This document shows, one piece after another, positions 563 through 18,871 of a DNA stretch of 32,238 nucleotides. The notes under the pieces were generated by a model. That model made no database searches. It worked only from the letters and a program-made list of their open reading frames with translations, and was not told the DNA's origin. The number at the start of each line of letters is the position of its first letter. The stretch's first letter is position 1. Position numbers and translations under genes: made by a program. Origin of the DNA: Promethearchaeota archaeon Loki_b32 (GTDB lineage: Archaea > Asgardarchaeota > Lokiarchaeia > Sigyniarchaeales > SOKP01); contig NJBH01000013.1 in the NCBI GenBank assembly GCA_005223125.1, positions 1 through 32,238 on the forward strand. Reading direction: 5' to 3'.

Positions 563-3500
563 TTTAACCTTGAATTCTTTGGCATTGATGATCAACGATA
601 TCTTTATCTTGCTCAAGAGGCGTGTGAGGATAGTTTATTTGAGACTGACCAAGATAGAAAAGATAGAGCTATAATCAAAATGGTTGATTTTGCTCAAAAT
701 TCTTATACAAACTTAGATTATTTACTTGTATCGAGCGAATTACCTTCATATAATAGTATTGAGCATTATCTTTTTGATCATGGAAAGGAAGATTATCGCA
801 CTGATGCTTATGATAATCATCAAAGCTATACATTAGGGTTTTTAGAACAGGCCATCAATACAGCTTCAAGAGGAGAGTATGATGCAATAAGACCCATGTG
901 TATTAACGGACGACCTGCATACATGTATATTAACAGCAATGATGAGTTATCTCAGCTTATTCAACCTCTATCACCCTTATATCAACCTGTCGTCATAAGC
1001 AGTACCAGATATGAAGATGAAGAGCTTCAAATTCCAGAGAGCACCCTCTCTATTGATATTCAGAGCACGTTATTGGACGAGTCCTACACTCAAGGAATCG
1101 ATGCGAGCAGTCTTATGTATTATGAATTGGAAAGAGGATATCAGGCAAAAATCCCTCTTTTTAGCGACGAGTTTAAATATCCTATTAGCAAGATCACCAT
1201 CGATGTATTAACTCCAGTCTCTAATTATGATTATTCATCCAATACATATTTTATTACATATGATTCAGATATCGAGCTCCTATCCAGTATATATTTTACT
1301 ACATATGTTTCAGGAATCGAACTCTCATCCAGTCAATATTCCCTTGAAGGCGGCAACTTATTCTTTTACAGTCCCATTGATGATATAATTCTTTCAGCTT
1401 TTAATTTTAAGGCATTACAAGATGAATTTATAGAGTTAACTCAAAACTGGGATGAAGGAACCCTCTTTTATAGGGTTAATATTCACTTTTCACAGGTTAT
1501 TGCTGATACTTCCATGACATCGGGAGTTATAGATACTGTATCTAATGAAGATGGGAGAAATGCCTTAGCGCAAACCACCCAATATCTGATCAGCGATTAC
1601 TTTAACGTGTTTACCTTAGCAGAATCATATGCTTTAGGACAAGCAGAAATGGATTATATTGTCCAACTTACAACCCTTTCCACCTTAATATCTTCAGTCG
1701 TTCTATTACCAGTCGTAATTGCTTCAGCAGCAGCGTCAGGATTATCACAGGGTATAAATAAAATGGCTGAAGATGCTCTTACAACTACTATATCATCAGA
1801 GGTTGCTAGAGCTGTTGGAATGACTCTATTGAAATACATTGCTTCAATACCTGTTCAAGTGATGACGGAGGTTTTTGAAGAACTCTATATAGATACACTC
1901 ATAGAGGAAACGTTTGAGAAATGGGGTGATTCTACAGGTTTCTGGTCTTCTCTTTTCTGCTCATTTAGGGAGGTGATTTTCGGCGCTCCAAGTGCCTTCC
2001 TAGGGAGCTTGTCTTCAGATACAAATATAAATACCCAAATGACCGCTAATGAAATTCAATTATTACAAGAAATCGAATTAATGCAAGAACATTCATGGTT
2101 TGCTTACCATGTTATGCAAGAGTCGACTTTAGATCATGCAATATCTGAGGATGTTGTTGTTCAATCTCAATTACAAATTAATAATATAAATCAACTTCAA
2201 GCACAATTAGCTGAGCTTGGACTCATTAGGCAGAGAAGTAGTATAAAGGCAAGTTCCATAATCAGCTCACAAACTATATTCCAAGGTATTTTTTCCCTTC
2301 CAGGGTTTTTTGTAGGAGGTTTTAGTTTAGGCTTTACTGGAATGCTTCTTGACCTATCGGTCGATTATCTATTCGATGTCCAATTAGCACGGCACATGAT
2401 TGACAAAAGAATACAGACATTAACCCAAACTCAGCACCAATTAGACCTTGAAGGAGAGGACCTCGGAAAAGTGCTCGAAGCGGAGGTGGTTCCTAATATC
2501 CCTGAGGTCAAGAATGTACTTGCAATGGCAAAAGGAATTGCCACCATCGATCCAACTCAATACAGTGCTTCTGAATTTGAAGCTCAAGTACAACTGCGAC
2601 TGAATGAACTCGATACATTAGGATCATATATAGAAAGTATGAGAGAGAGGCAGCAAGAAATTGAAGAGTCTCACAATATAATAAGTGCTATACCAAAGAC
2701 AGTAATTCCAGATGCTCCTAATTCAGACACTTTGCAGATAGTAGTAAGTGAAGAAGCCGCAATAGAAGCTGATCCTGTTATTGATGTAGGAGGAATTAAG
2801 CTTTGGATTCAACCACTTCCTGCTAATTATTATGGTTCAGAAAAAGATATGACTTTAAACGAATTATTAACAATAATGGGAATCTTAAATCATCCATATA
2901 AGTGGTTAAGTTTTACAGATCAGTATGGGAATCAGTATATTTTAAGGGATAGAGCTGTTGCAGTCACTGATGAAGGATTTAGAGAAATTAGAGGGGATTT
3001 ATCCTTAAAAGAAGTGTTTAATATCATCGGATATGATACTTCTACTTTGCCTCAACAGTTCCATGGTATTGCGCCATCTTTAGAAATAAAGACTGATTTA
3101 ATAAATATGCCCTCTTGGATGTTCGATTCTGTTCAGCCTTTATCATCACATATTTCTGTTTGGGCTAGCGCCTTGCCTGGGTATGCCTATATTAAAGCAC
3201 ATTTTCAACATCACTTCAAGGGAAGTGGTAATTTTGATATGATCTTTAATACTTATGAAAAGGCTCAACTTTTGGAAACTTTGTATAATTTAATCATAAA
3301 ACCTTTAAGAAGTAAATTTCTTATGGAATTTGATTTTGGGAAAGACGGAGCTTATGATATTGAAAATATCAAAAATGCATTTAAGGGTTATTTTGAGAGG
3401 ATGTGGAAAGGAAAAGATGTTCGGGATAGTCTTGGAGTTCATTGGTGGTCCTTAAACAAGAAAAAAGTGTGGGGAGATTTTATAAATGAGTTATTTGATA

Positions 3501-6500
3501 TGATGTTTGAAAAAGGGTTTGATCCAATATTTGGAGGAGGTTTGAATTATATACAATATGTATTAGAGGAAAGGATTACACTTGCGATTCTTGACGTTAT
3601 TATGAGGGAATCTGTTGAAATTTGTGATTCGGATTTAAAATTAAATACGTTTAGTGTAATTCCACAGAGGTTAAGTAATTTTATATCTGATTATTTTGAT
3701 TCTTCAAAGACTACTAAAAATGATATTGAGGCATTCTTCTTTGGCAGTCATACGGAAGATGGCAAAGTCTACAAAGAATATGGTAAGACTCACTTTTTTA
3801 ACTTGCTTGCAACTACTTTTTTCAGTGATCAAAGAACTGATCGAATGGTAATTCCAACTCTTCCGACTTCTTTCTTTGGCTATAGAAAAGAGGCCATGTA
3901 CTTCTTTTATGAGTTACCATTAGTAATGGCAGGTATGTTTGTAAAGGAAGATTTTAACCTTGAAAATTTTTATGATCACATTGAATATTCTTTTGACGAC
4001 CAATTTTTCACTGATGTTAATGAATTAATCCTAGATGGGATTGACATCTCCAATATATTCCCCTCAAGTTCTAGGTGGCCTGATCTTAATGTATATGAGT
4101 TTCTCTCAACAGTTATTTCACATCATATGAAGTCTACCTATTTACAAAGATTTAGTGCAGAAGCGTATGGTGGACGAATTAGAGCAGATTGTTTGTCCGG
4201 CCTTGTAATTGATTTTTACAAACAGATTATGAGTGATACTAAAATTCTTCCTGAACATGTACTTGAGTTGATATTACCAGCGAGAAACATAAACGAAGCC
4301 TCGATTATACTTAATAAGATTATTCACAAAGGCAGAAACGAATTAAATTATGAGACAAATTTTGAATCATTATACCAAGGGAAAACGTACAAAGTTCCTT
4401 CACAACATGTATACCTCTTTAAGGTTACAAGTTGGCTTAATCAATTAATCCAAGAAACTGATAGATCAATTACCAATATCAGGGAATTACGTGAATTTAT
4501 CGAGGATATATTTGATGATCCAGATTTTTATAATGGACTTCTTGATTTAGTCGAAGAAGTATTAGGTCAAAAATTTAAACAAGAGGAGATTTTTAGTCAA
4601 GGCTTTATAGGAGATGTCTTCTGTGAAAATATTATGAATTTATTCAAAGATAATCTTAACAAATTAGTTGTTCCAGACATCACCTCTAATAAGGGGTTCT
4701 CTTTATCATGGAGTGCTTACGTCGATATATGGTTTGATACCAATAAAGAAGGAAAGCAAGTTATCTTTACGAGCTCAATGCTTGATGCAAGTACTATCTT
4801 TTTGTTTGAAGATGGAGTTAAGAAAGAATTGCCTAAAGATCATATCTTTAAGCAAGCAATGGTAGTGGTTCATAATGATAATGGTGATAACATGATATGT
4901 CCAATTGATCAAATTAGTAATTTACCAGATCATGTACATGAAGGATTACTTTATAGGGACCGGAATGGAGCAGAGTCAATTTATCATAATATCTACGTAT
5001 GTAATGAGAACGGAGACCAATTATTTGGGAAAGTGTACATTGATGATAATGGGTATTTTGCTATCGATAACCTCGATTGGCCATTAATGTATTTAACAGC
5101 TCCCAAGGTTATATCTACTTCACAGAGGTTTTCTAAATTACAAGACTCAGATATTAATATATATTCAACTCATTTCTATACAGCCGTTGGTTATGCAACA
5201 GGGAATAGATATATTACTACATTACAAAAAACACTAGTTAATGTTATCCCCAATCCAGTTTACAAATCCTACCTACCAAATGCTAAGGCAAGGAATAGAG
5301 GTGTTCGGATTGACCACTCCATTCCAATTCTGGGAAGCCGACAAGTAATCGAATTATCAGAGTCATTTAATACACTTCAATTTTTTGCTAATGCGAAGTT
5401 TGGTGAAGAATTCCTCTATAAAACCTATTTAAGTCTTATAGGTTTTAGGGATATTATAAGGACTCCTGATGATCGAGCTCCTAGTAAAAGAAGTTCTCCA
5501 ATTGTTTATATTAATGATAAAATCGGATTTCTTAACATTAAGTACGATCCATACAGCGGAGCCGTAGATTTAAAATCTTATCGTGATAAATCTGACATTG
5601 AAGGCATATTTAATGTATTATTTAACACTAAAGAGCCGGTTATGGATTTCTTATTTCTCAAGGAAGAGGATGGAAGTATCATTCCGCGTCATGGTGATGA
5701 AGTCAAGATTAAAACTTGGTTGCACAACCTTTTCAATAAAATTACAGACCAGCAGCTAAACTTAGGCAGTGAAAGAATTAGTTTATTAATAAAGGAGGTA
5801 AGAGACAATCTTTTATCCAAATATACTCAGAATCCTATTGATATTACTAGTGATAGTAGAAATTTCTTATCCTTAAAAGAGATTGAGGCAGGTAAATTCA
5901 TTTATGAGCAAATCTCACTCCTTTTCGGTCATTTTACTTTAAGGCTTCTTTATATGCGTATGATTGATTTTTATGGTAATTCTAATTCATTCAAGATCGA
6001 TTTTAGGAGCATACCAAGTGTTGATGACATTTTAATCTATTTGAATGATTTCTCAATAATTACTTCTAATCAACAATTTGACGATAGTCCAATTTCATCA
6101 GAAGATTCTGTTTTCGCAAATGACAATCTATTTTCATATCTCTTCCTCGATTCATTTTTAGTATTGCCTGTTTTGAAAGGTTCCGATTTAAAGAATAGGA
6201 TATCGTTTGGAAACTCTCCATTAATTTTTCTTGAATCTGATATAAATTCTTTATTATCTAGGAGGATTACAGGCGAATATCATAGGACTTTTTATCAGAG
6301 GATTTCAAAATATTTCTTCAATAAATATAACACTTTCTTACAATCTCTTAATACAGTCGACAATTTTCAGACATATATAAATCGCTTCATTAACTCTGGT
6401 TGGGAGATGTTTAATGTCATTAAGAATGAATTAAAGAGGAATGTTTATTCCAGAGGCGATTTAGCATTAAAGCAGAAGGTAGACTTATATAACAGATTAT

Positions 6501-7414
6501 TAATTAGTGCCGAAAAAGAAATTTTTGATTATGGTGATCATACCGTATTGTTACAAGGGAACCATTTCCATAATATTCGCTTCCAGACAGAGAATTTGAT
6601 TATTGGTTGGAGTGAATTTACATATGATTTTAGCTTCGGAAGCCAGTATAATGTCCTTCAACGGGAAATTATTTTTTGGCAAGTAAATGACCCTATCACA
6701 GGAGACCCTTTTACATTACCTATTGAGAAGACGTATTTTGATGGAAAAGATATTTTTATATGGAGAGGAATGAAATTTGGTAAAGATACCATCTCTAAAA
6801 AAGATTTTAATAGTAATCAATATAATCAAGGATCAGTAGAAGAGAGGGCTGACATTTTAAGAAATGTTATAGAGGATAACTTTGGAGTAGATGGTAGTGT
6901 TAGAATTTATCCTCTATACAGACCTAATCCCGATCTTGGTTATCACTTTCTTTTACGTACAGATTTTGCTAGTAATTATATTCCAAATTTCAGACAACCT
7001 CTCACTAGTGGATTGAGTGACGCCAGAAGATTTGACATTAATTTGAATGATCCAGATGTTCAATATAAGTTAGAACATATAGCTAGACTCTCTCCATCCT
7101 TTGTTGAGCCAGGTTATTATGCTTTTGCGAAAGATTTCCTATTTATTATGACTTTAAATGACATAGGTGATATACCTATATATCAATATGATAAGATGGT
7201 ATGTGCTTTTGATAGAAATAAATTTTATTCCCCTGAGGAGATACCTTCTTTTGGTGACGGCGTTTCTAATAGATATAAACCAGTAAAAATAACTAATACA
7301 GAGGATGGAGTAGCTATTAGCAGACAATTAATTAAACTATGGACAAAGGAAAGAAATTATATACCTATTAGTACAGAGTATGCGTTTCCTGATGGATATC
7401 ATGTATGGTGGTAA
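563..7414 (+). CDS. Giant protein of unknown function, 5'-truncated
   Basis: I do not recognise this protein. The first ATG is at 680 (2,244 residues), but the same frame is open from 563 with coding-like acidic sequence (FNLEFFGIDDQRYLYLAQEA...), so at least 39 N-terminal residues exist and the real start is probably lost at the junction. Numbered from the ATG: 1-300 is mostly beta-like and carries a 15-residue tandem repeat at 189-218. A hydrophobic, Ala/Val/Leu-rich stretch at about 328-353 and a Gly/Phe-rich one at about 533-560 could span a membrane. Gln/Glu-rich coiled-coil segments lie near 455-525, 570-600 and 640-680. The remaining 1,500 residues are rich in Phe, Tyr, Asp and Asn with no motif I can name, ending in HVWW. 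Without the N-terminus a signal peptide cannot be judged. Giant secreted or membrane proteins are common in Asgard genomes. No catalytic role is proposed. Confidence 0.8.
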   Translation, partial: FNLEFFGIDDQRYLYLAQEACEDSLFETDQDRKDRAIIKMVDFAQNSYTNLDYLLVSSELPSYNSIEHYLFDHGKEDYRTDAYDNHQSYTLGFLEQAINTASRGEYDAIRPMCINGRPAYMYINSNDELSQLIQPLSPLYQPVVISSTRYEDEELQIPESTLSIDIQSTLLDESYTQGIDASSLMYYELERGYQAKIPLFSDEFKYPISKITIDVLTPVSNYDYSSNTYFITYDSDIELLSSIYFTTYVSGIELSSSQYSLEGGNLFFYSPIDDIILSAFNFKALQDEFIELTQNWDEGTLFYRVNIHFSQVIADTSMTSGVIDTVSNEDGRNALAQTTQYLISDYFNVFTLAESYALGQAEMDYIVQLTTLSTLISSVVLLPVVIASAAASGLSQGINKMAEDALTTTISSEVARAVGMTLLKYIASIPVQVMTEVFEELYIDTLIEETFEKWGDSTGFWSSLFCSFREVIFGAPSAFLGSLSSDTNINTQMTANEIQLLQEIELMQEHSWFAYHVMQESTLDHAISEDVVVQSQLQINNINQLQAQLAELGLIRQRSSIKASSIISSQTIFQGIFSLPGFFVGGFSLGFTGMLLDLSVDYLFDVQLARHMIDKRIQTLTQTQHQLDLEGEDLGKVLEAEVVPNIPEVKNVLAMAKGIATIDPTQYSASEFEAQVQLRLNELDTLGSYIESMRERQQEIEESHNIISAIPKTVIPDAPNSDTLQIVVSEEAAIEADPVIDVGGIKLWIQPLPANYYGSEKDMTLNELLTIMGILNHPYKWLSFTDQYGNQYILRDRAVAVTDEGFREIRGDLSLKEVFNIIGYDTSTLPQQFHGIAPSLEIKTDLINMPSWMFDSVQPLSSHISVWASALPGYAYIKAHFQHHFKGSGNFDMIFNTYEKAQLLETLYNLIIKPLRSKFLMEFDFGKDGAYDIENIKNAFKGYFERMWKGKDVRDSLGVHWWSLNKKKVWGDFINELFDMMFEKGFDPIFGGGLNYIQYVLEERITLAILDVIMRESVEICDSDLKLNTFSVIPQRLSNFISDYFDSSKTTKNDIEAFFFGSHTEDGKVYKEYGKTHFFNLLATTFFSDQRTDRMVIPTLPTSFFGYRKEAMYFFYELPLVMAGMFVKEDFNLENFYDHIEYSFDDQFFTDVNELILDGIDISNIFPSSSRWPDLNVYEFLSTVISHHMKSTYLQRFSAEAYGGRIRADCLSGLVIDFYKQIMSDTKILPEHVLELILPARNINEASIILNKIIHKGRNELNYETNFESLYQGKTYKVPSQHVYLFKVTSWLNQLIQETDRSITNIRELREFIEDIFDDPDFYNGLLDLVEEVLGQKFKQEEIFSQGFIGDVFCENIMNLFKDNLNKLVVPDITSNKGFSLSWSAYVDIWFDTNKEGKQVIFTSSMLDASTIFLFEDGVKKELPKDHIFKQAMVVVHNDNGDNMICPIDQISNLPDHVHEGLLYRDRNGAESIYHNIYVCNENGDQLFGKVYIDDNGYFAIDNLDWPLMYLTAPKVISTSQRFSKLQDSDINIYSTHFYTAVGYATGNRYITTLQKTLVNVIPNPVYKSYLPNAKARNRGVRIDHSIPILGSRQVIELSESFNTLQFFANAKFGEEFLYKTYLSLIGFRDIIRTPDDRAPSKRSSPIVYINDKIGFLNIKYDPYSGAVDLKSYRDKSDIEGIFNVLFNTKEPVMDFLFLKEEDGSIIPRHGDEVKIKTWLHNLFNKITDQQLNLGSERISLLIKEVRDNLLSKYTQNPIDITSDSRNFLSLKEIEAGKFIYEQISLLFGHFTLRLLYMRMIDFYGNSNSFKIDFRSIPSVDDILIYLNDFSIITSNQQFDDSPISSEDSVFANDNLFSYLFLDSFLVLPVLKGSDLKNRISFGNSPLIFLESDINSLLSRRITGEYHRTFYQRISKYFFNKYNTFLQSLNTVDNFQTYINRFINSGWEMFNVIKNELKRNVYSRGDLALKQKVDLYNRLLISAEKEIFDYGDHTVLLQGNHFHNIRFQTENLIIGWSEFTYDFSFGSQYNVLQREIIFWQVNDPITGDPFTLPIEKTYFDGKDIFIWRGMKFGKDTISKKDFNSNQYNQGSVEERADILRNVIEDNFGVDGSVRIYPLYRPNPDLGYHFLLRTDFASNYIPNFRQPLTSGLSDARRFDINLNDPDVQYKLEHIARLSPSFVEPGYYAFAKDFLFIMTLNDIGDIPIYQYDKMVCAFDRNKFYSPEEIPSFGDGVSNRYKPVKITNTEDGVAISRQLIKLWTKERNYIPISTEYAFPDGYHVWW
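1244..1333 (+). repeat. 45-base tandem duplication inside giant gene
   Basis: Two adjacent 45-base units (1244-1288 and 1289-1333) encode TYFITYDSDIELLSS and IYFTTYVSGIELSSS. About nine of fifteen residues are shared, and the DNA is clearly similar (shared runs around TTCAG, ATCGA and ATCCAGT). The unit length keeps the frame. It looks like a local duplication that has since diverged. Confidence 0.75.
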
Positions 7415-11464: not shown

Positions 11465-12388
11465 TCATAAACCTCTATAAAAATCCGGTCTTAGTATATC
11501 AGAATGAGTAATTCCATAATTAAGTACTTCAATAATTTTTTCCTTATCTCTATCCAACACTCCTTTAATGGGAAGATAATTACTTGCGTGATTGCTTCGG
11601 AATATGCAATTAGCACTTTTATTTTGAAACTTAACATTTTTAATGAATTCCTTCAATTCTCGTAAAATTTCTACAGAATTCATCTCCTGAAATTCCCCTT
11701 TTGCCATTCTTTTAAAAATTTCTGTTCCGGAAGGTGTCATTAGAGTAAGAAAGGCAATATACCATATTCTATCGTCATCAGGACAAATTTTATTAACTAA
11801 ATCAGCTGATTCTAAAGCGTGCGTTTTTGAGATTTCTGGATTATTTGCACCACCAAGACCATTTATAAAAGTAGCTGATAATGTGATATTCGCTTTCATT
11901 AATTTATTCGATGCTTTAATATAATCGTCCCTGGTTGCATGCTTATGAATATCTTCAAGTAACTTATCATATCCAGATTCAAAACCAATGTAAGCGATTT
12001 TTAATCCTGCGTTTGATAATTCTTTTAATTGAATATCTGATTTTTTTAAAATATCTTTAGCATGAGCATAAACTCCACACCTCTCTAAATTTGGAAAAAT
12101 CTTCATCGAATATTTAGTCAATTCAAGAAGCTTTTCAGTAGGTGTAACCATAGCATTTCCGTCCAAGAAAAATATTCGTTTTACATTTGAACCATAAATC
12201 CGTTTAGCAGTATCTAAATCTTTTTTAACATTATCTACTTCTCTTACTAAGAATTTCTTTCCAATGTTGGAAACACAAAAATCACATTTATAAGTACAAC
12301 CCTCTGTAACTTGAATTAATAGTGAATACCCTTCACTAGGTGGACGAAAAACAGGTTTACAATAATAGATTTCTTCCTTAGTATGCAT
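11465..12388 (-). CDS. Radical SAM protein
   Basis: The protein (307 residues) carries the radical SAM cluster motif CTYKCDFC (Cys31, Cys35, Cys38; CX3CX2C), which binds a 4Fe-4S cluster and S-adenosylmethionine. Other family features are a GFESG strand-loop near 137-141, GLGG near 175 and the preceding RIFFLDGNAM around 70-79, in the barrel layout of HemN/Elp3-like members. It has no B12-binding or TRAM domain. The substrate is unknown. It is the third gene of a co-directional run with the zinc-finger protein (51-base gap) and the JAMM-TPR protein. A paralogue with a different cysteine spacing lies at 26397-27305. Both open with an RPP.E.YS.LI.VT.GC block. Confidence 0.88.
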   Translation of the reverse strand: MHTKEEIYYCKPVFRPPSEGYSLLIQVTEGCTYKCDFCVSNIGKKFLVREVDNVKKDLDTAKRIYGSNVKRIFFLDGNAMVTPTEKLLELTKYSMKIFPNLERCGVYAHAKDILKKSDIQLKELSNAGLKIAYIGFESGYDKLLEDIHKHATRDDYIKASNKLMKANITLSATFINGLGGANNPEISKTHALESADLVNKICPDDDRIWYIAFLTLMTPSGTEIFKRMAKGEFQEMNSVEILRELKEFIKNVKFQNKSANCIFRSNHASNYLPIKGVLDRDKEKIIEVLNYGITHSDILRPDFYRGL

Positions 12389-12439
12389 TATGTTATTAAA
12401 AAAATGATAAAAATTGAGAACTATTTATATTTTAATAAT

Positions 12440-13126
12440 TTATTTATTATCTTTAACATCATCTGCATCAGGGGGCCTTTTTGGACAAGAACTTAAATGG
12501 CGACCAAGTCTAACAAACTCTTTTTGACAATAAGGACAAGCTTGCTTCTCTGCTGTACTTTTTTCTCTTGTTCCCGGTTTTCCACTAACTTTTTTCTTTT
12601 TTTTCTTTCCCCTAGTTGGCATGATATCTTCTATACTTGCATCATCGGGAGCAAACTCACAATTTTGAATGTGTGAAGAAAGATTATCGAATATATCTCC
12701 ACAGAACGGGCATTCTGTTATATCAGCTATTTCTGAATCTTCAAGGTCCGCCTTTCCTGCTTTTCTCTTTTCAAATTTCATTGGTGCTACTTCATCTTCT
12801 TCTTCAAACTCATCAATTGATAAATCAATTTTATCTTCCGATGTTATTTCTGCGATTTCAAATTCCTCCAGTTTTATCGCTCTTTCTTTAATTTTTTTTT
12901 CAGCAATCTTTTTGCTTTCTTCAAATATTTCTGAAAATCGCCGAGTGTTTTTGGCTGGATCATATTTGGTACACACTTGGCATACATAAGCTCGAGTGCC
13001 TAAAGTCAATTCTCTAGCAAGACAATAACATAAAGCTTGAAGACTGTTACTAATATTGCCTTTCGGTTCAAGGTGTTTACATACAATTTTTCTTGAATAT
13101 TTAATTTTTTGTTTACGTCTGGGAAT
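12440..13126 (-). CDS. C2HC zinc-finger protein, probable ATT start
   Basis: From the only standard start in frame (TTG at 13007-13009) the product has 189 residues. The frame continues open to 13132, and the extra sequence is clearly coding: IPRRKQKIKYSRKIVCKH…, then ALCYCLARELTLGTRAYVCQ running into the TTG frame. The extension has no ATG, GTG or TTG. An ATT at 13124-13126 sits six bases after GGTGA of a perfect archaeal Shine-Dalgarno, so I place the start there (228 residues). The N-terminal 55 residues hold C, CxH, CxC and CxxC ligands. The middle is acidic. Two fingers of the CX2CX9HX3C type follow (CPFCGDIFDNLSSHIQNC and CPYCQKEFVRLGRHLSSC), split by a Lys-rich linker. They resemble C2HC or UBZ-like fingers that bind nucleic acid or ubiquitin. 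Its place between a JAMM protease gene and a radical SAM gene makes a role with the JAMM protein plausible but unproven. Confidence 0.8.
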   Translation of the reverse strand: MPRRKQKIKYSRKIVCKHLEPKGNISNSLQALCYCLARELTLGTRAYVCQVCTKYDPAKNTRRFSEIFEESKKIAEKKIKERAIKLEEFEIAEITSEDKIDLSIDEFEEEDEVAPMKFEKRKAGKADLEDSEIADITECPFCGDIFDNLSSHIQNCEFAPDDASIEDIMPTRGKKKKKKVSGKPGTREKSTAEKQACPYCQKEFVRLGRHLSSCPKRPPDADDVKDNK

Positions 13127-13130
13127 AAAC

Positions 13131-13137
13131 GATCACC
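13131..13137 (-). promoter_or_regulatory. Shine-Dalgarno GGTGATC that decides an ATT start
   Basis: On the minus strand, GGTGATC complements the 3' end of archaeal 16S rRNA and is followed by GTTT and then ATT. The in-frame stop TGA lies inside this motif, so translation of the frame cannot begin further upstream. No ATG, GTG or TTG lies within the next 110 bases in frame. Confidence 0.65.
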
Positions 13138-13229
13138 AAAAGAAGTATGTAAGATAGTTATTCTTAAAATTTAATTTTTTTGAATTTAAGTAAAAGAAAT
13201 TTAATAAATTTACAAATTTAAAAATAGAT

Positions 13230-14804
13230 TTAAAAATTAAAATTTAAATTTTTGATATCTTTTGAAATTTTATTCTTTAATTCAATATTTTCCAGATTTG
13301 GTAATAATTCTTCAACAATATCTTTTAATTCTACAATTTTTTGAATAAGCAAATCAGGTTTATTCCAAAAATCTGTTCTTAATGGATGCATCTTTAAGAG
13401 AGCTTTATTAAAATTCTCAATAGCTGCTCTATAAAATAAGCAAGTATTTTCTAGTTTATTAAGCCTTGATTGATAAATTGAACCAATTTTATTAAAACAC
13501 ATACCTGCCCCTGCAAAATCACCTTCTTTTTCAAAATTTATAGCCGCATCTTGAATTTTATTCAGAGCATCTTCTAAAACTTCATTATCTCCTTTTTTTA
13601 ATAGCAAATAACCTCTAATATAGTAAGCTACTCCTAAATAAAAACGATGATTTTGTTTTTTAGCAAGTTTAAATAAATCGTCAGAAAATTCTCCCGCAAA
13701 AATTAAGTGTTCATTTGAAATGCATTTTTGAGTAACAATTCTTAAAAGCTCTAAAACTCTTTCAAAATCTTTATTTTCTCTATATTTTTCAATTCCTTCC
13801 CTAAATTTTTCAATTCCTGTAAAGGAATCTTTATTTTCGAATGCTTGATTTCCTTCATAAATTAATTGTTCTGTTGTTTCTTTCAATTTGATTTCTTTCT
13901 GCTTTTTCTTTCCATCGATCTCGCCATAAAAGAAATCATCAACTCCAAATGTAATATCTTCAGTCATAGGAATTTCGGTTAAAAAATTTTTAGTTTTTAT
14001 ATCGTTTGGTTCAGAACGGGCCTGAACTTTTTTTTCTTGTGAAAATTCTTCTCTGTACGCAGATTGTAAAGGTTTTCCTTCAGTTACCAGGGCAGATAGC
14101 TCAGATAAAACATTTGCAAAGAAGTATTTATTTAATCCGTCCACAACATAATCTATTTTATGATAATTATTGTCAAATCCAGGATCATTTACATTCATAC
14201 TTACGTCAGTTATTCTATAGATTTCAAAACCAGTATCATATTTTGTCATAGGGTATTCAGAGCCGTCTTCAACTTTTATCATTTCTTCTTTCTTCTTTCC
14301 TAAAAGGGTGTGATCAAATACTAAACCACAAAAATCGTTATTGTTTTGCTGAAATCCTAATTGGTTAATTAAATCTATATATGAAAAAAATAAGTTTAAT
14401 CCAGGATGGCTATGAAACCATCCAACTATATAATACCCTTTTCCCTCTTTATCAAGTTTCTCTTGAATTTCTTCGATAAATCCATAATGTCTTTCGTCCA
14501 ACTGAACATCAGTCGCATGTCCAAATGTTAAAGCTTCTGCACGCTCTACATAAACTAATTCTTCATCAGATTTTCCAATTAATAAACCATATATTTCTTT
14601 CCATTCCGCTGGAGGTATTGATTTATTTGCAAATCTGCTTGTGTATAAGATTATAGTTTTATAGGCATCTGCTCTAATAACTACTGGCTTACTGATTTTT
14701 TCTATTTGCTTTTCCTCTTTAGTATCTTCATTTTCTAAATTAGATTCCATATTTTCGTTTCCTGAATTTTCGTTATTATTGGGGTTTTTAAATTTCTCTG
14801 ACAT
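13230..14804 (-). CDS. JAMM (MPN+) metalloprotease fused to TPR-like helices
   Basis: The 524-residue protein starts with a 40-residue acidic, Asn-rich tail. Residues 42-170 form a JAB1/MPN/Mov34 domain with a complete JAMM site: Glu70 (KEIYGLLIG), His131 and His133 (VGWFHSHPG), Ser141 and Asp144 (HxHx7SxxD). This is the zinc site used by Rpn11 and CSN5 to cut ubiquitin-family conjugates, so the enzyme is predicted to be active, not an MPN-minus scaffold. Residues 305-520 are helical with TPR-like pairs (EGNQAFENKDSFTGIEKF, YLGVAYYIRGYLLLKKGD, AGMCFNKIGSIYQ). A catalytic MPN domain and helical repeats in one chain is unusual, since in eukaryotes these lie on separate MPN and PCI subunits. A GGTTGAT sequence sits directly before the ATG. 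The gene is first in a run with the zinc-finger and radical SAM genes. The ubiquitin-like substrate is inferred; no ubiquitin, E1 or E2 gene is in the window. Confidence 0.88.
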   Translation of the reverse strand: MSEKFKNPNNNENSGNENMESNLENEDTKEEKQIEKISKPVVIRADAYKTIILYTSRFANKSIPPAEWKEIYGLLIGKSDEELVYVERAEALTFGHATDVQLDERHYGFIEEIQEKLDKEGKGYYIVGWFHSHPGLNLFFSYIDLINQLGFQQNNNDFCGLVFDHTLLGKKKEEMIKVEDGSEYPMTKYDTGFEIYRITDVSMNVNDPGFDNNYHKIDYVVDGLNKYFFANVLSELSALVTEGKPLQSAYREEFSQEKKVQARSEPNDIKTKNFLTEIPMTEDITFGVDDFFYGEIDGKKKQKEIKLKETTEQLIYEGNQAFENKDSFTGIEKFREGIEKYRENKDFERVLELLRIVTQKCISNEHLIFAGEFSDDLFKLAKKQNHRFYLGVAYYIRGYLLLKKGDNEVLEDALNKIQDAAINFEKEGDFAGAGMCFNKIGSIYQSRLNKLENTCLFYRAAIENFNKALLKMHPLRTDFWNKPDLLIQKIVELKDIVEELLPNLENIELKNKISKDIKNLNFNF

Positions 14805-17714: not shown

Positions 17715-17834
17715 CTAGCTAGCTTGAATGCTCAAAGTAGAAAGATTTGAAAAATAATACTTTAATTGTATTTTTTGATATTGATTTTCATGATTTTAGA
17801 TTTTTTTCTTCATGTGCCTGAAGTTCAGCATTGC
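17715..17834. repeat. Direct repeat copy B: duplicated tail fused to comE
   Basis: This is the partner of copy A, at a constant offset of about 2,720 bases. Its coding part now forms the end of the comE-like gene: copy A encodes …VFRHFKKKNLKS, while copy B encodes …NFRHMKKKI in the same frame. A one-base deletion in the A-run of copy B brings a TAA forward. The binding-protein gene is therefore flanked on both sides by the same 120-base segment. Confidence 0.8.
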
Positions 17835-18374
17835 CTTACAAAATCGAGTTTTAATCTCCTCAGGATGTAAAAGGATGTTACTTACGTGAGCATTACCGGG
17901 TTGAGTTCTAATGAGTACAAAATGGCATCCAGTACCCAAGTTTTTTAGGCCTTGAATTATATCTTTTTCTTTGTCGATAATAGTAATTGATTCAAATCCT
18001 GCTCCTTTTGCGATGACTTCTAATTTTGTTTTACCACTTGTATAAGTTTTTTGATCACCAGTAGATCCATAAGAAGAATTATCTATAACTATGAGAGTTA
18101 AATTATTTGGGCTATTATTAGCTATTGTACTGAGACTTCCGAGATTCATTAATAAGGAACCATCTCCATCGATACAAACAACTCTTTTGTTGGGTTTTGA
18201 AATAGCTAAACCAAACGCGATGGAAGAAACTAACCCCATTGATCCTAACATATAAAAATTCTCCTCTCTATCATCAATATCATAAAGTTCTCTTGAAGGA
18301 GTACCAAGATTACAAACAACAAGTTCATTATTTAAGGATTCAACAATTTGTTTTATTGCGTCGTATCTTTTCAC
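17796..18374 (-). CDS. comE: Sulfopyruvate decarboxylase beta-like subunit (ThDP-binding)
   Basis: This is the thiamine-diphosphate-binding half of a two-subunit decarboxylase. The cofactor motif is GDGSLLMNLGSLSTIA…DNSSYGSTG, very close to ComE/phosphonopyruvate decarboxylase sequences. An ATG at 18389 would give 197 residues, but a GTG at 18374 (192 residues) is preceded by GGAGG eight bases upstream and overlaps the comD stop as GTGA, so I prefer it. ComD and ComE together decarboxylate sulfopyruvate to sulfoacetaldehyde in coenzyme M synthesis; phosphonopyruvate or a related 2-oxo acid is the alternative substrate. Family members normally end near …RFxKAM. Here an extra LNFRHMKKKI follows, derived from the tail of the neighbouring binding-protein gene, probably harmless. 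Confidence 0.82.
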   Translation of the reverse strand: MKRYDAIKQIVESLNNELVVCNLGTPSRELYDIDDREENFYMLGSMGLVSSIAFGLAISKPNKRVVCIDGDGSLLMNLGSLSTIANNSPNNLTLIVIDNSSYGSTGDQKTYTSGKTKLEVIAKGAGFESITIIDKEKDIIQGLKNLGTGCHFVLIRTQPGNAHVSNILLHPEEIKTRFCKAMLNFRHMKKKI

Positions 18375-18871
18375 GGTATTTTCCTCCATAAATTTCTTTT
18401 TAGAAGGATTCCTACTGATTTTTTTGACTTTTTACAAACATCGACAGCAAATTTTACTTCTTTAATATTTTCCATTGAATTAATAATAAATTTTCTAATA
18501 TTTAATAAATCTAATAGATCTGGCGTAAGTTGGCCCATTGGAATTTGAGCCTCAATTTTTTCTCCTTCGGCACCTCTATGACTCATTATAAATATTATAG
18601 GAATTTTGTATAATTGTAATAAGGATTTTATGGCATTTATTGAGTTGCCTAGTCCCGAATTTTGCATCAAAATTGCTGGTGTTCTTCCGCCTAAATAAGC
18701 ACCTGCTGCAATTCCTACTCCTTCTTCTTCCCGCGTTACCGGAATATGCTGAATTTCTTTTTTTTCATCAATAAGTTTTAAAATATCCTTTAACAATATA
18801 CAAGGTAATGATAAAATTAAATCTACTCCGGATTTTTTAATCATTTTATATAATTCAATATCTGCTTTCAT
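18371..18871 (-). CDS. comD: Sulfopyruvate decarboxylase alpha-like subunit
   Basis: The 166-residue protein matches the pyrimidine-binding (PYR) half of ThDP decarboxylases. It has VTREEEGVGIAAGAYLGG at about 45-62, containing the conserved Glu that activates the cofactor, then MQNSGLGNSINAIKSL and PIIFIMSHRGAEGEK, all characteristic of ComD and of the N-terminal part of phosphonopyruvate decarboxylase. It ends in a GTGA overlap with the comE-like gene, so the two are co-translated subunits. In methanogens this enzyme serves coenzyme M synthesis. No other coenzyme M genes are in the window, so the pathway remains open. Confidence 0.85.
   Translation of the reverse strand: MKADIELYKMIKKSGVDLILSLPCILLKDILKLIDEKKEIQHIPVTREEEGVGIAAGAYLGGRTPAILMQNSGLGNSINAIKSLLQLYKIPIIFIMSHRGAEGEKIEAQIPMGQLTPDLLDLLNIRKFIINSMENIKEVKFAVDVCKKSKKSVGILLKRNLWRKIP

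Follow-up and report, generated by a model that had tools for sequence, protein, structure and literature searches.

CsRpn11 of Caldiarchaeum subterraneum, the JAMM protein of solved structure closest to the one described here, was reported together with a ubiquitin modification operon (PMC6043591). Eukaryotic Rpn11 and CSN5 act as parts of lid complexes, alongside an MPN- partner and PCI subunits. The present locus lies in a 32,238-nucleotide stretch of the Lokiarchaeal Asgard genome of Promethearchaeota archaeon Loki_b32 (contig NJBH01000013.1, positions 1 to 32,238; hereafter the window), where three consecutive genes on the minus strand encode a JAMM (MPN+) metalloprotease with a C-terminal TPR-like helical array (JAMM-TPR; 13230-14804, 524 amino acids), a zinc protein with two fingers (12440-13126, 228 amino acids when read from an ATT start) and a radical SAM enzyme (11465-12388, 307 amino acids). 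The gaps of 103 and 51 bases given in an earlier note, made from the letters of the window alone, agree with these coordinates, the first of them being exact only if the zinc-protein gene begins at the ATT at 13124-13126. For such a start the closest described systems are infC (ATT in E. coli, ATC in Streptomyces) and Streptomyces sigR (GTC, and GTT in some species), which have conserved near-cognate start codons and are repressed by IF3 (PMC5472188). These are bacterial, IF3-dependent genes, whereas archaea have aIF1 instead, which is reported to destabilise initiation complexes on non-AUG mRNA (PMC6237735), and a review of archaeal initiation gives AUG, GUG and UUG as the start codons (PMC7531240).

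We tentatively favour a reading in which JAMM-TPR is a deubiquitinase of the Rpn11/CSN5 class and the zinc protein is its partner, made from a near-cognate start codon. JAMM-TPR would remove the cell's own ubiquitin-like modifiers from target proteins, with the TPR-like array holding a partner or substrate. The zinc protein would be the most likely partner. Its constant N-terminal cysteine domain may attach to the enzyme or to a complex that includes both, and its C-terminus, which varies between two fingers, one finger and a winged helix, may tether that complex, probably to nucleic acid or to a machine bound to it. The near-cognate start would keep the level of the zinc protein low, or tie it to the strictness with which the ribosome selects start codons, and the radical SAM enzyme would be a frequent, optional neighbour with a job of its own. 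If this is true, a dedicated deubiquitinase with a lineage-specific partner of its own exists in Lokiarchaea outside the ubiquitin operons, and this has a bearing on how JAMM complexes of several subunits, the proteasome lid and the COP9 signalosome among them, came about. We found no report of the JAMM-TPR/zinc-protein feature in the open-licence literature on Asgard JAMM proteins.

The JAMM-TPR protease and the ubiquitin system of its genome

From its anatomy and the content of the genome, JAMM-TPR most likely belongs to the Rpn11/CSN5 class of zinc-dependent deubiquitinases. The metal site of the JAMM/MPN+ class (a Glu plus H-x-H-x7-S-x2-D) is complete, with the catalytic E70 lying within WKEIYG (14595-14597, minus strand) and H131, H133, S141 and D144 within the motif HSHP-x6-S-x2-D (residues 131-144; 14373-14414, minus strand), and all five residues are identical in 28 of 28 aligned JAMM-TPR proteins that share 48-82% identity with the one in the window. 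Pfam JAB is matched above its cut-off (E 2.2e-11), and a PDB profile search with the alignment returns the Caldiarchaeum Rpn11 homologue as the best match (2.9e-17), followed by yeast Rpn11 and CSN5. The AlphaFold model (mean predicted local distance difference test score, pLDDT, 74) has an MPN domain that Foldseek matches to Rpn11, CSN5 and BRCC36 at E of about 1e-8, a disordered linker at about 241-296, and ten C-terminal helices spanning residues 296-518 with pLDDT mostly 79-94. The helical array (residues 296-523; 13236-13919, minus strand) has weak Pfam matches to TPR_8 and SNAP, and TPR-like is the right wording because Pfam recognises these helices as TPR weakly. The intact Rpn11/CSN5-type site fused to TPR-like helices that the earlier note had read from the letters is thus borne out by the invariant residues, the profile and Foldseek searches and the model.

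JAMM-TPR resembles CsRpn11 in its JAMM domain with a complete metal site and in being matched to it by profile and fold; unlike CsRpn11, it is encoded away from the ubiquitin loci, bears the TPR-like array and has a zinc-protein neighbour. With eukaryotic Rpn11 and CSN5 it shares the MPN+ fold and the H-x-H-x7-S-x2-D motif, but it carries its helical region on the same chain and has no MPN- partner gene adjacent.

The same genome holds E2 matches above cut-off, ubiquitin-like matches and four ThiF/E1 matches, so the concern raised earlier, that it might have no ubiquitin-like protein at all, does not apply, and a deubiquitinase role is plausible because ubiquitin-like proteins, E1 and E2 are present. 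Pfam and NCBIfam scans of the neighbours revealed no ubiquitin-like, E1 or E2 gene in the window; the operon-type genes are on contig C44, where a ubiquitin-like protein, E1, E2, an Rpn11-like JAMM protein and a membrane protein with a cysteine-rich C-terminus are encoded, and on contig C36, with JAMM, E1 and E2 genes. Since further JAMM genes are found on contigs C21 and C1, the window JAMM is one of several, and the operon-type enzyme is the product of the C44 gene. Contig C21 has neighbouring genes for two JAMM proteins with long coiled-coil tails, and a third JAMM gene about 5 kb away adjoins an AAA ATPase-like gene. Related JAMM proteins of about 580-600 amino acids occur in sister orders (four loci, families f5, f6 and f7) beside moaC- and mogA-like genes, with a moeA-like gene in two, and often also near a 2'-5' RNA ligase-like gene, as annotated by eye.

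The zinc protein and its start codon

The earlier note had described two fingers in the zinc protein. It has in addition a third cysteine cluster, not mentioned there, in the form of an N-terminal four-cysteine domain (C16, C35, C49, C52; 12971-13081, minus strand) that is invariant in 30 proteins and kept in all sister families. In the alignment the N-terminus is basic, the middle of the protein is helical and acidic, and a basic linker precedes the second finger. The fingers themselves (C139, C142, H152, C156 at 12659-12712 and C197, C200, H210, C214 at 12485-12538, both minus strand) have the form C-x2-C-x9-H-x3-C with ligands invariant in the family, except that the second is H-x-C in genus g2. 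The protein is not a chance reading frame, because 58 of the 65 family genomes have it, including 15 of the 15 that are of good quality. Its profile (A3) finds it in 75 of 228 genomes of the phylum and in none outside the source order, with 12 of the genomes coming from three other families of that order; many additional weak matches in genomes of the phylum cover the finger motif alone. No Pfam or PDB relative of the N-terminal domain was found, and Foldseek gave no match at E <= 0.001 for the model of the zinc protein (predicted template modelling score 0.33).

The conserved frame opens with xPRRK, and the codon at x is usually not a standard start. In 56 genomes it is ATT in 31, ATA in seven, ATC in five, ACG in three, ATG in eight, GTG in one and TTG in one, and the position of the ATT in the window (13124-13126, minus strand) is thereby backed by 55 relatives. 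Five bases ahead of this ATT is a Shine-Dalgarno motif, GGTGAT (13132-13137, minus strand), that is kept in most of the family; the start codon mostly follows GGTGAT, or a motif very like it, at a distance of 4-8 bases, and one group in genus g8 has GGTTGG. The spacing between this motif and the codon varies among genomes by non-multiples of three, so the stretch upstream of the codon is not read in frame. In 18-19 of the genomes there is no in-frame ATG, GTG or TTG near the conserved N-terminus. A conserved codon other than ATG, GTG or TTG at the start of the frame together with a ribosome-binding site, the infC/sigR type of criterion, is thus seen in 46 of the 56 genomes. The comparative pattern makes it very probable that translation initiates at the near-cognate codon, and this is the most solid new fact about the locus.

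Other starts were considered and rejected. The first possible ATG, GTG or TTG start in the window gene is a TTG at 13009, which would remove half of the N-terminal cysteine cluster, and the cysteine domain is conserved ahead of it; a GTG or TTG further upstream is rejected by stops and frame-changing indels in the upstream stretch. Near-cognate starts as a habit of these genomes at large were weighed too; the habit does exist in a few neighbouring genes, and the zinc-protein gene stands out by its regularity. The neighbouring genes start with ATG in 28 of 28 cases for JAMM-TPR, 12 of 12 for orf250 and 37 of 40 matches for radical SAM. Among 21 gene families of the fetched loci, scored by their conserved N-termini with one antisense frame set aside, the zinc-protein family alone has a near-cognate start as the rule; the metallophosphoesterase gene starts with ATT in 6 of 32 or 33 genomes, all of one genus, and single cases occur in other families. 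Eight apparently missing starts in the antisense frame family were discounted as artefacts.

The likeness to infC and sigR lies in a conserved start outside ATG, GTG and TTG behind a conserved Shine-Dalgarno motif, and, as sigR varies between GTC and GTT by species, so the zinc-protein gene varies among ATT, ATA, ATC and ACG. On the tree of JAMM proteins the start codon has changed at least 14 times, and six changes suffice between the standard and the non-standard class; this drift within the non-standard set is what would be expected if a weak start were selected for, or tolerated. A regulatory function of the codon is conceivable and somewhat unlikely. A little more doubtful is that the gene would be an archaeal counterpart of infC and sigR, in which the stringency of initiation, set by aIF1 or by the zinc protein itself, would determine the dose of the deubiquitinase partner and tie it to the state of the translation machinery.

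What the start codon shows is separate from the function of the JAMM/zinc-protein pair and more easily tested. A gene that keeps an ATT, ATA, ATC or ACG start throughout an archaeal family would extend the list of accepted archaeal start codons beyond AUG, GUG and UUG (PMC7531240), and we found no archaeal report of such a start in the open-licence literature on Asgard and archaeal start codons. Standard gene finders would cut the zinc protein short, at the cost of half of the zinc site that is best conserved in it. In an alignment of 18 members of the source genus, about 50 bases before the codon are conserved and the remaining intergenic stretch is not; this leader (CAAAAAAATT..TTTTAAG..TACTTCTTTTGGTGAT; 13132-13182, minus strand) consists of an AT-rich, promoter-like part, which would serve as a promoter, and the ribosome site after it.

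Proposed partnership of JAMM-TPR and the zinc protein

The JAMM-TPR and zinc-protein genes are no more than 600 bases apart on one strand in 52 of the 53 family loci holding both, so the gene order that the earlier note had singled out for checking is conserved in relatives. All 18 relatives from the source genus have them side by side and co-directional, as do 34 of 35 loci of the other genera, the exception being a gap of 718 bases, and the median gap across relatives is 103 bases. Outside the family, 26 genomes were searched for a full-length JAMM-TPR protein, and the four that have one all have the zinc-protein gene nearby. In two of them the genes are in tandem with about 100-165 bases between them; in a third they share a strand and are about 1.3 kb apart, and in the fourth they are convergent. 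Five family genomes that lack the zinc-protein gene also lack the JAMM-TPR gene. A putative partnership of the two proteins is supported by this linkage and co-occurrence.

Several observations weigh against that reading. The joint absences may be assembly gaps. Eight genomes of sister families hold the zinc protein and no JAMM-TPR protein, and the zinc protein must therefore have a role of its own. The zinc-protein gene has a conserved leader of its own, which suggests that the two genes may be transcribed separately. With at least six other JAMM proteins in the genome, one of them in a ubiquitin locus, the window enzyme may serve another modifier. Finally, the trio sits in a larger conserved block that includes unrelated genes and in which other pairs are kept too, so that conserved order alone is no proof of joint function.

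Another explanation is that the JAMM-TPR, zinc-protein and radical SAM genes have stayed together because the region has been little rearranged, and have no joint function. Two other pairs of the block are equally constant in the family (metallophosphoesterase/polyprenyl synthase in 26 of 27 and coenzyme A-transferase/metallophosphoesterase in 22 of 22, in genera g2-g9), and in sister family f3 the polyprenyl synthase and metallophosphoesterase genes likewise remain close to the zinc-protein or radical SAM gene. Such inertia does not readily explain why, at two f3 loci, the JAMM-TPR and zinc-protein genes are still in tandem where the radical SAM gene is inverted, why the zinc-protein gene is near in each of the four outside genomes, or why the pair persists although the sulfopyruvate decarboxylase, orf128 and orf250 genes of the block are variably present around it. 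We regard an inherited neighbourhood as possible and rather unlikely.

The part that the fingers would play in a partnership differs from what was first supposed. In RAD18-type UBZ domains the C-to-H spacing is 11. The earlier note's "two UBZ/C2HC-like fingers" are two C2HC motifs with invariant ligands, and their identity as UBZ was rejected: ubiquitin-binding finger families are absent from the best Pfam matches of 30 members of the zinc-protein family, and the spacing here is 9. A PDB profile search with the finger alignment gave merely weak matches to C2H2 fingers and short pieces. The earlier proposal that the finger protein could recruit the conjugate cut by the JAMM enzyme has to reckon with the sister families. 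The examined members of families f2 and f3 have one C-terminal finger, and the three homologues in family f4 have no finger, their C-terminus being a winged helix, with a match to the TFIIIC B-block above the Pfam cut-off (5.8e-7) in one of them. Across the zinc-protein families of the order, the N-terminal cysteine domain alone is constant, and recruitment of ubiquitin conjugates cannot be the constant role of the protein because a finger is lost, or a winged helix present, in the sister families. A finger of the same CPYCGK type is found at the N-terminus of a 203-amino-acid protein encoded on contig C11 (L138:4359-4967) beside Trm1- and FtsJ-like methyltransferase genes, and most genomes of the family have the motif again in a protein about as long.

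The variable C-terminus also suits another relationship between the two proteins, in which the zinc protein would be a nucleic-acid-binding regulator of transcription or translation, and a substrate or target of JAMM-TPR in place of an adaptor. The winged helix of f4 with its B-block match, the basic N-terminus and linker, the finger type shared with the protein encoded beside methyltransferase genes and the eight genomes with a zinc protein and no JAMM-TPR would all fit such a regulator. Its predicted fold, however, matches nothing solved, and the part that evolution has held constant is the N-terminal cysteine domain. We consider a regulator improbable, and an adaptor-like partner is the preferred reading.

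The radical SAM enzyme and the surrounding genes

The earlier note regarded a link between the JAMM/zinc-protein pair and the radical SAM enzyme as potentially new. The enzyme has the CxxxCxxC motif, a Pfam match at E 3.1e-16 and no recognised accessory domain. Its gene is within 600 bases of the zinc-protein gene, on one strand, in 46 of the 46 family loci holding both, and in the sister families it adjoins the zinc-protein gene in 6 of 12 genomes, even where JAMM-TPR is absent, and lies within 5 kb of it in 10 of 12. These figures could be taken to mean that the three proteins form one pathway, in which the radical SAM enzyme would modify a protein or cofactor that is then processed by JAMM-TPR and the zinc protein. 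Against this, seven relatives, five of them from the same genus, keep the JAMM-TPR/zinc-protein pair with no radical SAM gene in the cluster, and the copies that some of them have elsewhere are 46-49% identical. A dedicated link of the enzyme to JAMM-TPR is weak, since its gene is absent from the cluster in these seven and stands beside the zinc-protein gene where there is no JAMM-TPR in others; a specific connection between the pair and radical SAM chemistry is not supported, and a three-protein pathway is very unlikely.

Five loci of family f3 have a polyprenyl synthase-like gene beside the radical SAM orthologue or close to it, and among solved structures the radical SAM enzyme best matches glycerol dialkyl glycerol tetraether (GDGT) lipid synthase. 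Together these hint at a role in lipids and, as regards the three-protein pathway, point instead to lipid or other metabolism.

Two further features of the window lie outside the trio. A 2244-amino-acid open reading frame at 680-7414 on the plus strand matched no Pfam or NCBIfam family. The genes for the alpha and beta subunits of sulfopyruvate decarboxylase, an enzyme of the coenzyme M pathway, are at 17796-18871 on the minus strand; they pass the NCBIfam cut-offs and are present in most of the source genus and in few other genera of the family.

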